From Paracoccus sp. MA (lineage in GTDB: Bacteria; Pseudomonadota; Alphaproteobacteria; Rhodobacterales; Rhodobacteraceae): 64,000 nucleotides of DNA. Positions 1,206 through 51,044 of the stretch are shown here, piece after piece. The stretch spans positions 230,001-294,000 of the forward strand of contig NZ_CP087598.1 in assembly GCF_020990385.1 (NCBI RefSeq), written 5' to 3'. A program made the translations under genes and the position numbers. Each line of letters opens with the position of its first letter. Positions within the stretch are counted from its first letter, which is position 1. The notes beneath the pieces were generated by a model. That model did no database searches. It saw only the letters and a list, made by a program, of their open reading frames with translations, and was not told the origin of the DNA.

Positions 1206-1282
1206 CGCGGGGTAGAGCAGCCCGGTAGCTCGTCAGGCTCATAACCTGAAGGCCGCAGGTTCAAATCCTGCCCCCGCAACCA
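1206..1282 (+). tRNA. Initiator tRNA-fMet (anticodon CAT)
   Basis: The 77-nt cloverleaf starts CGCGGGG and ends with an encoded CCA. The anticodon loop is CTCATAA, on a stem of GGG/CCT type. Position 1 C opposite 72 A gives the unpaired acceptor end that is diagnostic of bacterial initiator tRNA. It closes the rrn operon. Its 3' 45 bp are repeated exactly at 51000-51044, so the gene is also the insertion site of the island that follows. Confidence 0.97.
1238..1282 (+). repeat. att core, left copy, inside tRNA-fMet
   Basis: These 45 bp, from the anticodon loop to CCA, are identical to 51000-51044 in direct orientation. Identity stops sharply on both sides. Integrases that use tRNA 3' ends leave exactly this pattern, with an intact tRNA at one end and a displaced 3' fragment at the other. 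A tyrosine integrase gene sits beside the distal copy. Confidence 0.93.
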
Positions 1283-1308
1283 AAATTACTGATAGATATC
1301 AGTGCATT

Positions 1309-1331
1309 AGGCCTCCTTCGGGAGGTCTTTT
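1309..1331 (+). terminator. Rho-independent terminator after tRNA-fMet
   Basis: An 8-bp stem (AGGCCTCC with GGAGGTCT, one G-T pair) carries a TTCG tetraloop and is followed by TTTT. It would end the rrn transcript just inside the island. The presumed original terminator now lies beyond the distal att copy at about 51061. Confidence 0.85.
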
Positions 1332-1350
1332 GCATTTGAGCAAAAAACAC

Positions 1351-1371
1351 TCCGGAAGCATATCGGAAGCA
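1351..1371 (+). repeat. Left arm-type integrase site (GGAAGCA repeat pair)
   Basis: Two GGAAGCA words lie 13 bp apart within 100 bp of the left att core. The same 21-bp arrangement, differing at one base, occurs in the same orientation at 50836-50856 just inside the right att core. This is expected for integrase arm-binding sites and ties both ends to one element. Assignment as arm sites is inferred. Confidence 0.6.
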
Positions 1372-1613
1372 GTTGCGCGGAAACCACGTCGCAAGATCGG
1401 CGGGGTCACATTAACGTGATGGAAGTCGTCGACGGGTAATTGATGACCCCACTTCATTGAATTGATGGGTTCCTGACGCTTGATGCGTCCGCGAGAAGGC
1501 CAGCGAGCGCAGATAAGTCGTAGTCCGCCGCCCGGGTGCAGCATAGGCTTGGGATACTACCAGGCTTGACATGCAGGATGGAAAGATGCGCAAGGAGGGG
1601 AAGAGGATTGCAG

Positions 1614-2948
1614 ATGCCACGGGCAATGGACGCAAAGGACGACAGGGCGGGTGCTGCGCTGACGGATGCGGCCTGGTCCGATGTGCTGATTGCGGTGGAT
1701 CGCACCTATGCCGAGCTGATCGAACATCAGGAGCGGCTTGAGGCCCAGAACCGCGAGCTTGAGGCGCTGCGTCAGTTCCTGTCCTCGGTCATCACCTCGG
1801 TTTCCGATGTGCTGATCGTGCTGGATCGCGACGGGCGGGTGGATGAGGTCAATGCCTCGACCTGTGTCTGCACCGGGCTGCCTGTCGCGGCCCTGGTCGG
1901 CCGGAGCGTGGCGGATCTGGTGCGCGAAGAGGATCGCGCGGGTCTTTCGGCCCTGATTGCGGAGATTGCGCGCACGCGGGCGCCGGGGCGGATGGAGCTT
2001 TCGCTTGTGAGTTCGCGTGAGCCGGCCCCGGTCGAGGCGGTCCTGTCGCCGCGCCTCGATGATCGCGGCCGGATCGAGGGGCTGGTGCTGACGGGGCGTC
2101 CGGTGGGGGAATTGCGCCGCGCCTATGCCCAGCTTGAACGCAGCCATGCCGAGATGAAGGCCGCTCAGGCGCAGCTGGTCCATGGCGAGAAGCTGGCCTC
2201 ATTGGGGCGTTTGCTGGCCGGGGTGGCGCATGAGCTGAACAATCCGATCAGCTTTGTCTATGCCAATGCCCATGCGCTGGAACGCTATGCCGCCAAGTTC
2301 GAGACCTATTTCGAGCGGGTTCAGGCCGGGGCAGACAGGGATGAACTGGTCCGCCTGCGGGAGGAATTGCGGCTGGACCGCGAGTTGCGCAACCTGCGCG
2401 AGGCGGTGCAGGGCGCGCGCGAGGGGGCCGAAAGAGTGCGCGATATCGTCGAGGATCTGCGCCGCCTGTCCTCGGACGGGGGCGGAGAGATGGCGGCCTT
2501 CGACCTGGTCGAGACCGCCCGCACCGCCGCCTTCTGGATCATGCGCGGGGCCGGCCACAGCACCGTGCCCGAGATCCATGCCGAAGGGCCGGTGATGGTT
2601 CTGGGGCATACGGGCCATATTCAGCAGGTGGTGATGAATCTGGTGCAGAACGCGCTGGATGCGGTTTCGGAAACCGCAGCCCCGCAGATCGCCCTGCGGA
2701 TCATGCGCGAGGAAGGCCGTGGCGTGCTGGACATCCACGACAACGGTCCGGGCATCGACGAGGCGACGGCCGCGATGATCTTTGACCCGTTCTTCACCAC
2801 GAAACCCGTGGGAAAAGGCACCGGACTTGGCCTGTCGATCAGCCTCAAGATCGCCGAGGATCATGGCGGCAGGCTGAGTTACAGCCCCGCCTCCGGTGGT
2901 GGCGCGCTGTTTCGGCTGGAGCTGCCGCTGGCAGGAGAGGACGCATGA
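1614..2948 (+). CDS. hupT: HupT, sensor histidine kinase of the hydrogenase regulatory system
   Basis: HupT is the cytoplasmic kinase that works with the H2 sensor HupUV to control hydrogenase genes through HupR. From the N-terminus it has a short coiled region, a PAS domain (about residues 55-165), the H-box VAHELNNP with His206 as likely phosphoacceptor, and a HATPase domain with an N-box, DNGPGIDE and KGTGLGLSIS. It has no membrane segment. The start at 1614 is preceded by AAGGAGGGG and AAGAGG; an upstream in-frame ATG at 1536 would add 26 unlikely residues. It overlaps hupU by ATGA, indicating coupled translation. The gene order hupT-hupU-hupV-hypF matches Rhodobacter capsulatus. Confidence 0.92.
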   Translation: MPRAMDAKDDRAGAALTDAAWSDVLIAVDRTYAELIEHQERLEAQNRELEALRQFLSSVITSVSDVLIVLDRDGRVDEVNASTCVCTGLPVAALVGRSVADLVREEDRAGLSALIAEIARTRAPGRMELSLVSSREPAPVEAVLSPRLDDRGRIEGLVLTGRPVGELRRAYAQLERSHAEMKAAQAQLVHGEKLASLGRLLAGVAHELNNPISFVYANAHALERYAAKFETYFERVQAGADRDELVRLREELRLDRELRNLREAVQGAREGAERVRDIVEDLRRLSSDGGGEMAAFDLVETARTAAFWIMRGAGHSTVPEIHAEGPVMVLGHTGHIQQVVMNLVQNALDAVSETAAPQIALRIMREEGRGVLDIHDNGPGIDEATAAMIFDPFFTTKPVGKGTGLGLSISLKIAEDHGGRLSYSPASGGGALFRLELPLAGEDA

Positions 2949-49619: not shown

Positions 49620-49629
49620 CAGTGCCAGA

Positions 49630-50811
49630 TCATGCTGCGGAAATTTCATCACCGTCCTCAGTGACCGGTTGCGCCAGTGCCTGCGCCACAGCATCGGAGA
49701 CGGCGTCCGCCGCCGAGCGGACCGGATCGGTCTTCAGGTGAGCATAACGCGCCGTGGTCTGCACCTGCGTGTGTCCGAGGAGCCGCCCGATCATCGTCAG
49801 GTCCTGCCCGAGCTGCAGGGCATCCGAGGCGAAGGAATGGCGAAGATCGTGGATGCGGAGATCATCCAGCCCGGCGCGCTTGCGCAACCGCCGCCATGGC
49901 TTCTGCATGTCGGTGAGATGCTGACCTTCTTTGCGGCCGGTGATGACATAGGGGTTCCCGTCGATCTTCGGGATCGCCTTGAGAACCTCGATGGCCGCCT
50001 TGCCGATCGGGACCAGCTTGGCGCCGGTCTTGGAATCCGGCAGGCGGAGAAGACCGTTGCGGTCATCGACATAGCGCCATTTCAGGGTCTGAATCTCGCT
50101 GAGGCGGCATCCGGTCAGCAGCAACAGCCGGATGCAGGATGCGGCCTCGGGTTCGTCTTTCGCCTCATTCAGCACCTTGCCGAGGCGTGCCAACTCGTCC
50201 GGGGTGAGATAGCGCTCGCGCTTTTCCTCCCGGTATCGCTTCACCTTCCAGCAGGGGTTCACTCCGTCGGTGCGCACGCCCCAGGTATGGGCCACGGTGA
50301 ACATCACCGAGAGGACGCCGAGGGTCCGGTTCGCCTGATAGGGGATATGCTTCATGGACTGGTGTAGTCCGACGACGTCGGCCCGGGTGATGTCGATGAT
50401 GCGATGACTGCCGAACCTCGGATTGATGAACAGATCGATGGATCGCTCGTACTCGCCATAAGTCGAAGCTTTGCAGTGCAGCGCGACGTGATCCGAAAGG
50501 AAGCGTTTGCTGAACTCTTTGATGGTCGGGGAGGCCTTTCGGCGGTCGCGCTCACCGGCGGGATCGGCGCCGAGCCGCACATCTGACAGATATTTCATCG
50601 CCTCAGTGCGGGCCATTTCCGGCGTCATCGCACCATGCAGCCCGATGTTGACACGGCGCGAACGGCCGCCGGCGCGGTACTGGGCCAGATACATCTTTCG
50701 CCCCGATGGATAGACGCGCAATCCGAAGCCTTTCAGCTCTTCGTCCCAGAGGAAGAACTCCTGCCCGGTTGGCACCGCCGCGTCGACGGAACGTTTCGTG
50801 ATCTTTGTCAT
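49630..50811 (-). CDS. int: Tyrosine-type integrase of the island
   Basis: The 393-residue protein has the N-terminal DUF4102-like arm-binding domain (LWDEELKGFGLRVYPSGRKMYLAQYRA), a core-binding SAM-like domain and the catalytic domain, with Arg in LLLTGCRLSEIQTLKW, HDLRHSFAS and LLGHTQVQTTARYAHL (Tyr nucleophile). It points into the island and starts about 190 bp from the right att core. The ATG at 50811 follows GGAGGGG; GTG 50817 is an alternative. It most likely inserted the element into tRNA-fMet. Confidence 0.93.
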   Translation of the reverse strand: MTKITKRSVDAAVPTGQEFFLWDEELKGFGLRVYPSGRKMYLAQYRAGGRSRRVNIGLHGAMTPEMARTEAMKYLSDVRLGADPAGERDRRKASPTIKEFSKRFLSDHVALHCKASTYGEYERSIDLFINPRFGSHRIIDITRADVVGLHQSMKHIPYQANRTLGVLSVMFTVAHTWGVRTDGVNPCWKVKRYREEKRERYLTPDELARLGKVLNEAKDEPEAASCIRLLLLTGCRLSEIQTLKWRYVDDRNGLLRLPDSKTGAKLVPIGKAAIEVLKAIPKIDGNPYVITGRKEGQHLTDMQKPWRRLRKRAGLDDLRIHDLRHSFASDALQLGQDLTMIGRLLGHTQVQTTARYAHLKTDPVRSAADAVSDAVAQALAQPVTEDGDEISAA

Positions 50812-50825
50812 CTTCACCCCTCCAG

Positions 50826-50867
50826 TTCCGGAAGCTCCGGAAGCAAATCGGAAGCAACAGGAAGCAA
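50826..50867 (+). repeat. Right arm-type integrase sites (GGAAGC repeats)
   Basis: Four GGAAGC words are spaced 9-13 bp apart upstream of the integrase start. The segment 50836-50856 matches 1351-1371 at 20 of 21 bases in the same orientation. This supports both ends belonging to one integrase system. Confidence 0.6.
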
Positions 50868-50999
50868 ATCACTGTGCTGCTGTGGCGAAGAGAAGGGTAG
50901 GGTCGTCTACGCTATAAATCAATATTAACAGATGGTTATGCGAGTATTGGCGCCTTTTTCGCACCGTGGCGAAAGGTGGCGAAAACGCCCTGACCAAAA

Positions 51000-51044
51000 C
51001 TCATAACCTGAAGGCCGCAGGTTCAAATCCTGCCCCCGCAACCA
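51000..51044 (+). repeat. att core, right copy (displaced tRNA-fMet 3' end)
   Basis: The 45 bp repeat the tRNA-fMet 3' end from anticodon loop to CCA without a 5' half, so no tRNA is made here. It marks the right end of the island. The bases that follow include a terminator (51061), probably the original one of the rrn operon. Confidence 0.93.

Follow-up and report, generated by a model that had tools for sequence, protein, structure and literature searches.

The hydrogenase locus and its edges

The window considered here, a 64-kb stretch of DNA from Paracoccus sp. MA (genome G000, 4.47 Mb in 3 contigs; window G000:C2:230001-294000), holds a hup/hyp gene set for the sensing and oxidation of hydrogen (H2), which very probably rides on a site-specific genomic island that targets tRNA-fMet genes and has been exchanged among Paracoccus species. 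The set comprises 20 open reading frames (ORFs) in a single orientation, or 21 functions when the rubredoxin domain of the fused HupJ is given a count of its own, where an earlier, sequence-only reading of the same DNA had spoken of 21 genes. Their arrangement is as follows:

1536..7658, plus strand: hupT (PAS histidine kinase), hupU, hupV, hypF
7861..10743, plus strand: hupS (with a twin-arginine translocation signal) and hupL, the uptake [NiFe]-hydrogenase
10759..16298, plus strand: hupE, hupC (cytochrome b), hupD, hupF, hupG (HyaE), hupH, hupJ (fused to a rubredoxin domain), hupK
16252..21531, plus strand: hypA, hypB, hupR, hypC, hypD, hypE

The structural, sensor, regulator and maturation ORFs are all open and recognisable, as in an uptake [NiFe]-hydrogenase regulated by HupTUV/HupR. 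HupL possesses both metal-binding motifs, L1 (RICGVC) and L2 (DPCLACSTH), followed by a C-terminal extension, and HupV, part of the sensor hydrogenase HupUV, stops at the L2 motif without such an extension, a trait that we take to mark sensor subunits. The names HupT and HupK rest on position and gene order, HupK having no Pfam match, and the GAFTGA motif was looked for in the response regulator HupR and not found.

The edges of the putative island are formed by two exact copies of the tRNA-fMet 3' end, which would serve as attachment (att) cores, and by the features next to them:

1206..1282, plus strand: tRNA-fMet gene (anticodon CAT), preceded by the 23S end and 5S; its 3' 45 bp form the left att core
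1238-1282, plus strand: left att core, the exact 45-bp tRNA-fMet 3' end
1283..1535, plus strand: left end of the island, containing a hairpin that resembles a terminator and a GGAAGCA direct repeat in two copies (1354, 1365)
49630-50817, minus strand: tyrosine integrase (Arm-DNA-bind_3, SAM-like and Phage_integrase domains), inside the right core
50830..50866, plus strand: four GGAAGC(A/T) direct repeats (50830, 50839, 50850, 50860), presumed integrase arm sites
51000..51044, plus strand: right att core, an exact 45-bp repeat representing the displaced tRNA-fMet 3' end

The 45-bp repeat, the integrase inside its right copy and the arm repeats at both ends are as the sequence-only reading had described them, and they support its proposal of tRNA-targeted integration. 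Its placement of the island inside a ribosomal RNA (rrn) operon needs correcting, since the island sits behind the operon, after the tRNA gene that trails 5S, and no rRNA gene is interrupted. A chance origin of the repeat was considered and is ruled out by its exactness over 45 bp and by the presence of cores at matching edges in other species. The GGAAGC(A/T) sites number 13 on the plus strand of the 64 kb, two of them clustering at the left end and four at the right; in first-order Markov simulations (20,000 stretches of each length), at least two such sites occurred in 3/20,000 stretches of 118 bp, and at least four in 0/20,000 stretches of 182 bp. The integrase carries its HxxR motif at residue 323, and the remaining R and Y motifs were identified by eye in the translation.

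Relatives of the integrase with ~80% identity were found in Stappia, Telmatospirillum and a Rhizobiaceae metagenome-assembled genome. Two further relatives, in Azospirillum argentinense (NZ_CP007794.1 403100-404425, 76%) and Indioceanicola profundi (NZ_CP030129.1 157587-158932, 75%), are accompanied by the att region next to the gene.

Empty sites and the right flank

If the segment between the cores was inserted, relatives should carry position 1282 joined directly to 51045, as the sequence-only reading had predicted. A probe made of window 901-1282 joined to 51045-51700 was aligned to 12 sequences, and a near-full-length alignment across the junction was obtained in 5/12 (77-87%), namely P. 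versutus UW1 and P. ferrooxidans NCCB 100066 (L206 and L207), L126, L133 and L135; partial alignments that include the junction were found in L137 and L141, identity across all 7 junction-spanning sequences being 74-87%. The predicted empty site is thus present in P. versutus, P. ferrooxidans and other relatives.

The DNA to the right of 51044 is not plain chromosome and begins with another recombinase:

51001..52659, minus strand: large serine recombinase ORF, outside the island, with its stop codon and 3' end within tRNA sequence

At several hup-free sites this recombinase gene directly follows tRNA-fMet (e.g. CP038202.1 295658-297310), and the same is seen, as separate matches, in P. pantotrophus DSM 11072. 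Among the PLSDB predictions for the latter strain is an aac(3)-Ih gene, located ~112 kb downstream of tRNA-fMet (L204:18677-19132, NZ_CP038206.1). Further to the right of the island in the window, a chrB-a RNA match (60063-60149, minus strand) lies next to chrB and a chromate transporter.

Distribution and placement within Paracoccus

HupL was surveyed in 125 Paracoccus genomes, 12/125 of which fall below the 90%/5% quality line, and it was found in 8/125, no full-length match being present in the other 117; a match in G069 (E 3e-4, 59 residues) is excluded from this tally, which would otherwise stand at 9 genomes. This distribution rules out hup as part of the core genome, one of two cases that the sequence-only reading had named against itself. 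In the genome set used, a single genus takes in G000 together with P. denitrificans and P. kondratievae. The hup carriers include P. denitrificans DSM 413 (G026, draft contig; strain HAMBI_2443 is identical to it), P. kondratievae BJQ0001 (G039), G053, G059 and G099, as well as G120 and G121, whose divergent clusters are considered below.

In P. denitrificans HAMBI_2443/DSM 413 and in G053, hup lies on a 30.1-kb att-bounded island that has the same hup left end and the same integrase right end as the window. Window 1238-22047 is matched in HAMBI_2443 at 96.8% and window 46232-53903 at 95.6%, with the att cores 30.1 kb apart. The left end itself (window 1283-1530) is 96.7-99.6% identical in G059, G026 and G053, and 86.2% identical over 138/248 aligned bp in G039. 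The complete tRNA-fMet of P. denitrificans is located ~129 kb upstream of the island, so that other DNA separates the two, and a different integrase (54% identical) adjoins the left core. G053 bears five cores on contig C4, at 279366 (complete tRNA), 322546, 392069, 460054 and 490160, and hup lies between the fourth and the fifth of these. G026:C94 51189-146691 and G053:C4 394710-490204 are 99.79% identical over 95.5 kb, in a pair whose rpoB identity is 90.9%, and the right edge of this block is the last base of the att core.

These arrays suggest that hup might travel mainly in composites of tandem tRNA-fMet islands, mobilised through outer att copies and not by the island's own integrase, a refinement that could hold alongside movement of the island and that we regard as unlikely although worth retaining. 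The five cores of G053 and the extent of the 95.5-kb block, which covers hup and most of the neighbouring interval, speak for it; on the other hand, hup adjoins an intact tRNA in G000, G059 and G039, with no extra core before the right one in G000 and G039 and none found in G059.

Three rrn-linked tRNA-fMet loci were defined by their upstream flanks:

Locus A: the window, G059 C4:2119 kb, G053 C1:2084 kb, G039 C1:99 kb
Locus B: G000 C2:1857 kb, G059 C1:140 kb, G053 C4:1432 kb, G039 C1:737 kb
Locus C: G000 C1:87 kb, G039 C2:1000 kb (a single flank pair, 83%)

By this upstream synteny hup is placed at locus A in G000, at B in G059 and at C in P. kondratievae (G039). The test of both flanks rests on locus A, since B and C are defined upstream: G000 C2:332001-340000, downstream of A, recurs with unchanged orientation downstream of A in G039 and G053, where that locus is free of hup, and is split and rearranged in G059. 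Because the chromosome on both sides of A recurs in relatives, the hup set of G000 lies between shared flanks. Two other downstream blocks were tried as core flanks and set aside: d1 (G000 C1:191-205 kb, G053 C4:504-519 kb, G039 C1:743-766 kb) carries or adjoins relaxase/VirB4 matches, and d2 (G053/G059, 94.6-98.7%) exceeds the identity upstream of the same locus (81-91%) and for this reason has the appearance of a further island. Among the other flanks compared, none matched the upstream flanks of G053 C4:279366 and G059 C4:754562.

All three rrn-fMet genes found in G000 are followed by a second core, 49.8 kb away at A, 25.0 kb at B and 66.2 kb at C, and the left ends at different cores bear different paired repeats, which are read as arm sites of several integrase families. 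At locus C of G000 the intact tRNA (C1:86804) has the T-stem GTTGG/CCAAC, and in the second core (153028) the T-stem is GCAGG/CCTGC, an allele shared with loci A and B; this would be expected if integration replaced the tRNA 3' end. In the tRNA-fMet that precedes hup in P. kondratievae (G039 C2:1000229; L044:15229-15305), ACAGG faces CCTAC, which gives the T-stem two mismatches, as though a crossover had occurred inside the T-loop. In G059, ~59 bp of the hup-island left end stand behind a hup-free tRNA-fMet (L071, C4:2119164) and are followed by repeats of another type, which to judge by this succession is a mosaic att end.

Conflict between hup and rpoB

Near-identical hup DNA (97-99.6%) is present in five genomes although rpoB differs by 5-11%. 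Identities to G000, whose rpoB is on the same contig as the window, were obtained over window 7861-21531 for hup:

G039: hup 99.6%, rpoB 89.8%
G059: hup 98.4%, rpoB 95.3%
G053: hup 97.9%, rpoB 91.4%
G026: hup 97.2%, rpoB 94.9%
G120: hup 79.8%, rpoB 92.6%
G121: hup 79.5%, rpoB 92.3%

At third codon positions the excess of hupL over rpoB is marked for G039 (99.8/74.0%), G053 (90.3/78.6%) and G059 (96.3/88.2%), and for G120 hupL (67.7%) falls below rpoB (82.1%). In approximately unbiased tests on seven taxa, the rpoB data reject the hup tree (p=3.5e-7) and the hup data reject the rpoB tree (p=2.9e-52).

The conflict bears directly on the alternative that hup is a vertically inherited cluster beside one rrn operon, shifted among loci by homologous recombination between operons, next to which an integrase island happened to land. 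The operons are long repeats that could recombine; the upstream flank of B is on contigs of 2.39/2.26 Mb in G000/G039 and of 1.53/1.50 Mb in G059/G053; and G059 has hup at a tRNA-fMet gene without the window integrase. Against this stand the mutual rejection of the trees, with hup far closer than rpoB for G000 versus G039, G053 and G059, the lack of a full-length HupL match in 117/125 genomes, the end of the 95.5-kb block at the att core, and the shared chromosome on both sides of locus A in G000, so that vertical descent with shuffling of operons appears very improbable. The other case named by the sequence-only reading, hup without the integrase at this same rrn operon, was not encountered either, the single close hup relative that lacks the window integrase, G059, having hup at a different rrn locus.

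Variable cargo and conjugation genes

The unit common to the copies consists of window 1283-22047 on the left and 46232-51044 on the right, and the genes in between differ:

22634..25102: IS21-family element (near-identical matches are named ISPkr1), without target-site duplication
25103..29171, plus strand: ROSE element (26212-26301), two Hsp20 genes, NDUS4-domain gene, SPW-like gene (scoring below the Pfam cut-off)
29172..46231: variable cargo with a PAS/HWE kinase, glycosyltransferases, PIG-L deacetylase, catalase (39620-41668, minus strand), DUF4130/uracil-DNA glycosylase and radical SAM genes
46232..50817: shared right-end module with an M24 peptidase, flavin adenine dinucleotide oxidoreductase, methyltransferase and the tyrosine integrase

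The sequence-only reading had proposed that the whole set moves as one unit together with stress, repair and surface-sugar genes. The first part, movement of hup/hyp between species, stands on the comparisons above; the second does not, as 4.57 kb stands in place of window 22.05-46.23 kb in P. denitrificans. Inside the P. kondratievae att pair, 25103-29171 is the only part of window 22.05-46.23 kb that was found (99.85%, there joined to the integrase end); window 29172-46320 has no match within that region, and for 29172-46231 there is none in those stretches of P. kondratievae and P. denitrificans that were compared. The ROSE match, an RNA thermometer, adjoins the two Hsp20 genes within the island.

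The IS21 element sits at a junction, its left flank matching G059 and its right flank P. kondratievae. These flanks and the missing target-site duplication suggest that the window island may be a fusion or deletion product. The missing duplication is weak evidence, because one of two other IS21 copies in G000 (C2:1835238) also has none, the other (C2:307284) having CTTTGGGG on both sides.

No relaxase or type IV secretion system (T4SS) gene was recognised among the window ORFs scanned, and a profile search of G000 gave no PF03135 match and a single PF03432 match, on C1 (the genome-wide search being confined to this relaxase family). The situation differs in P. kondratievae, where a 188-kb att-bounded region (G039:C2 811970-1000273), with hup at its left end and the cognate integrase at its right, contains two relaxase and two VirB4 matches; one module comprises a TraG-type coupling protein, VirB8, CagX and TrbI (Trb-type conjugation genes). 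Integrase, relaxase, coupling protein and T4SS are thus all present inside one att pair, as in an integrative and conjugative element (ICE), and the cognate integrase is the only tyrosine integrase match in the region.

These observations raise a second refinement, equally compatible with island exchange and held tentatively, namely that hup is ICE cargo; the intact form would be represented by the 188-kb region of P. kondratievae, and shortened derivatives by the islands of the window and of P. denitrificans. In its favour are the contents of the 188-kb region, the IS21 element of the window, which joins sequences that are apart in G059 and G039 without a target duplication, and a 69.5-kb interval between two cores of G053 with a relaxase, VirB4 and an integrase 98% identical to that of the window. 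Several points run the other way. In G120 a gap of 224 bp separates hup from the Hsp20 block (G121 has the same order), so that the conjugation genes of G039 may have been inserted between them; the two conjugation sets suggest a composite; serine recombinases were sought in the 188-kb region with a single query; one other IS21 copy also lacks a duplication while another has one; and the left end of the 69.5-kb G053 interval bears another repeat type. It is conceivable, at a similarly guarded level of confidence, that an ICE family using the tRNA-fMet genes of rrn operons throughout Paracoccus carries a complete pathway for H2 sensing and oxidation as its standing cargo, the P. kondratievae region being transmissible and the window and P. 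denitrificans islands shortened yet still travelling, alone or in tandem composites.

Proposed movement of the island

In the mechanism favoured here, the tyrosine integrase would recombine the island-borne tRNA-fMet 3' end with a tRNA-fMet gene behind an rrn operon, an event that would keep the tRNA whole on the left and leave the displaced 3' end on the right. The cargo would be a self-sufficient H2 module for sensing (HupUV, HupT, HupR), oxidation by a membrane hydrogenase (HupSL with HupC) and maturation (Hup/Hyp), and near-identical copies, which follow different rrn-fMet genes, would have been exchanged between Paracoccus species. The tRNA 3'-end repeat at both edges, the intact integrase inside one of them, the empty sites in relatives and the sporadic distribution with an incongruent tree agree with a tRNA-targeted island. 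Movement between species is further supported by att-bounded hup with integrase in several species, by hup at different rrn loci and by the 95.5-kb shared block with its right edge at an att core. The encoded integrase is the presumed active agent; passage from cell to cell would take place by conjugation, either in trans or aboard relatives of the ICE type, of which the 188-kb region of P. kondratievae is an example; and hup is expected to work in the recipient.

A number of observations weigh against this proposal. No relaxase or VirB4 was found in the window island, which for this reason is probably not self-transmissible and has probably lost, or never had, transfer genes; likewise, no excisionase was recognised among the window ORFs scanned. 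In G059 the tRNA-fMet in front of hup is intact, the hup contig holds no near relative of the window integrase, and a search of 120 kb gave no right core. On its left side the 95.5-kb block does not coincide with a core, beginning 2.6 kb to the right of one in G053. The empty-site probe aligned on its tRNA side alone in 4/12 sequences (L124, L129, L140, L066) and in two pieces in L130. At third codon positions, G000 and G026 show no excess (hupL 86.8% versus rpoB 87.7%), and rpoB support within G000/G059/G026 is low (39, 58), so that it is G053 and G039 that carry the hup/rpoB conflict. Window 46232-49405 is present in P. pantotrophus DSM 11072 (97.3%) without any hup match in the 190 kb covered, and the right-end module thus also exists apart from hup. 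Lastly, the divergent hup of G120 and G121 (~80%) lies away from tRNA-fMet, so that some hup clusters of the genus are located elsewhere than on this island. A tRNA-His adjoins hup in G120, where a repeated 3' end was looked for (in G120 alone) and none was found; in G121, hupL of the divergent cluster is in two pieces (C1:342871-344660).

Relation to known systems

Transfer of one regulated module could explain why uptake hydrogenase is patchy in Paracoccus, where the model species P. denitrificans has it, and the tRNA-fMet genes of rrn operons emerge as landing sites; as the rrn locus that hup follows differs between species, the mobility of an energy-metabolism trait becomes directly testable by polymerase chain reaction and mating. 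In Bradyrhizobium symbiosis islands hup is also located on a chromosomal island, a much larger one linked to nodulation genes.

The literature searched consisted of titles and abstract openings, with most subscription journals outside its coverage, and within it no treatment of a Paracoccus hup island was found, nor any account of related species in which a regulated hup set was traced to separate rrn-fMet loci. Islands of Paracoccus are treated in PMC6209633 and PMC10732464, the word hydrogenase occurring 0 times in the available text of the latter. In Sinorhizobium meliloti, where resident fMet genes lie in three rrn operons, phage-related sequences carry tRNA-fMet genes, according to passages of PMC11476347; fMet sequences on mobile elements are thus a shared feature, although those of S. 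meliloti are phage-related, and the fMet-carrying ones described there are located at tRNA genes of other kinds.

Islands with hydrogenase genes are already known from two other bacteria. Acidithiobacillus caldus has hupSL-hypFCDEAB on the genomic island GIAcaTY.4 (PMC3826726), and resembles the present case in combining an uptake hydrogenase with hyp genes; its enzyme, in another organism, is assigned there to group 2, whereas the Paracoccus set includes HupC and sensor genes. In Cupriavidus metallidurans CH34, the Tn4371-family islands CMGI-2 and CMGI-3 carry hox/hyp genes (PMC2864759). Here too, hydrogenase structural and maturation genes are found on integrase-bearing islands with conjugation genes, comparable to the P. 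kondratievae relative with its Trb/VirB-type genes. As described in the portions of that report on these islands, CMGI hydrogenase expression is not under an H2 sensor and the CMGI-3 cassettes are flanked by IS1071, whereas the Paracoccus island carries the HupTUV-R sensing set and has tRNA-fMet as its target (PMC2864759).

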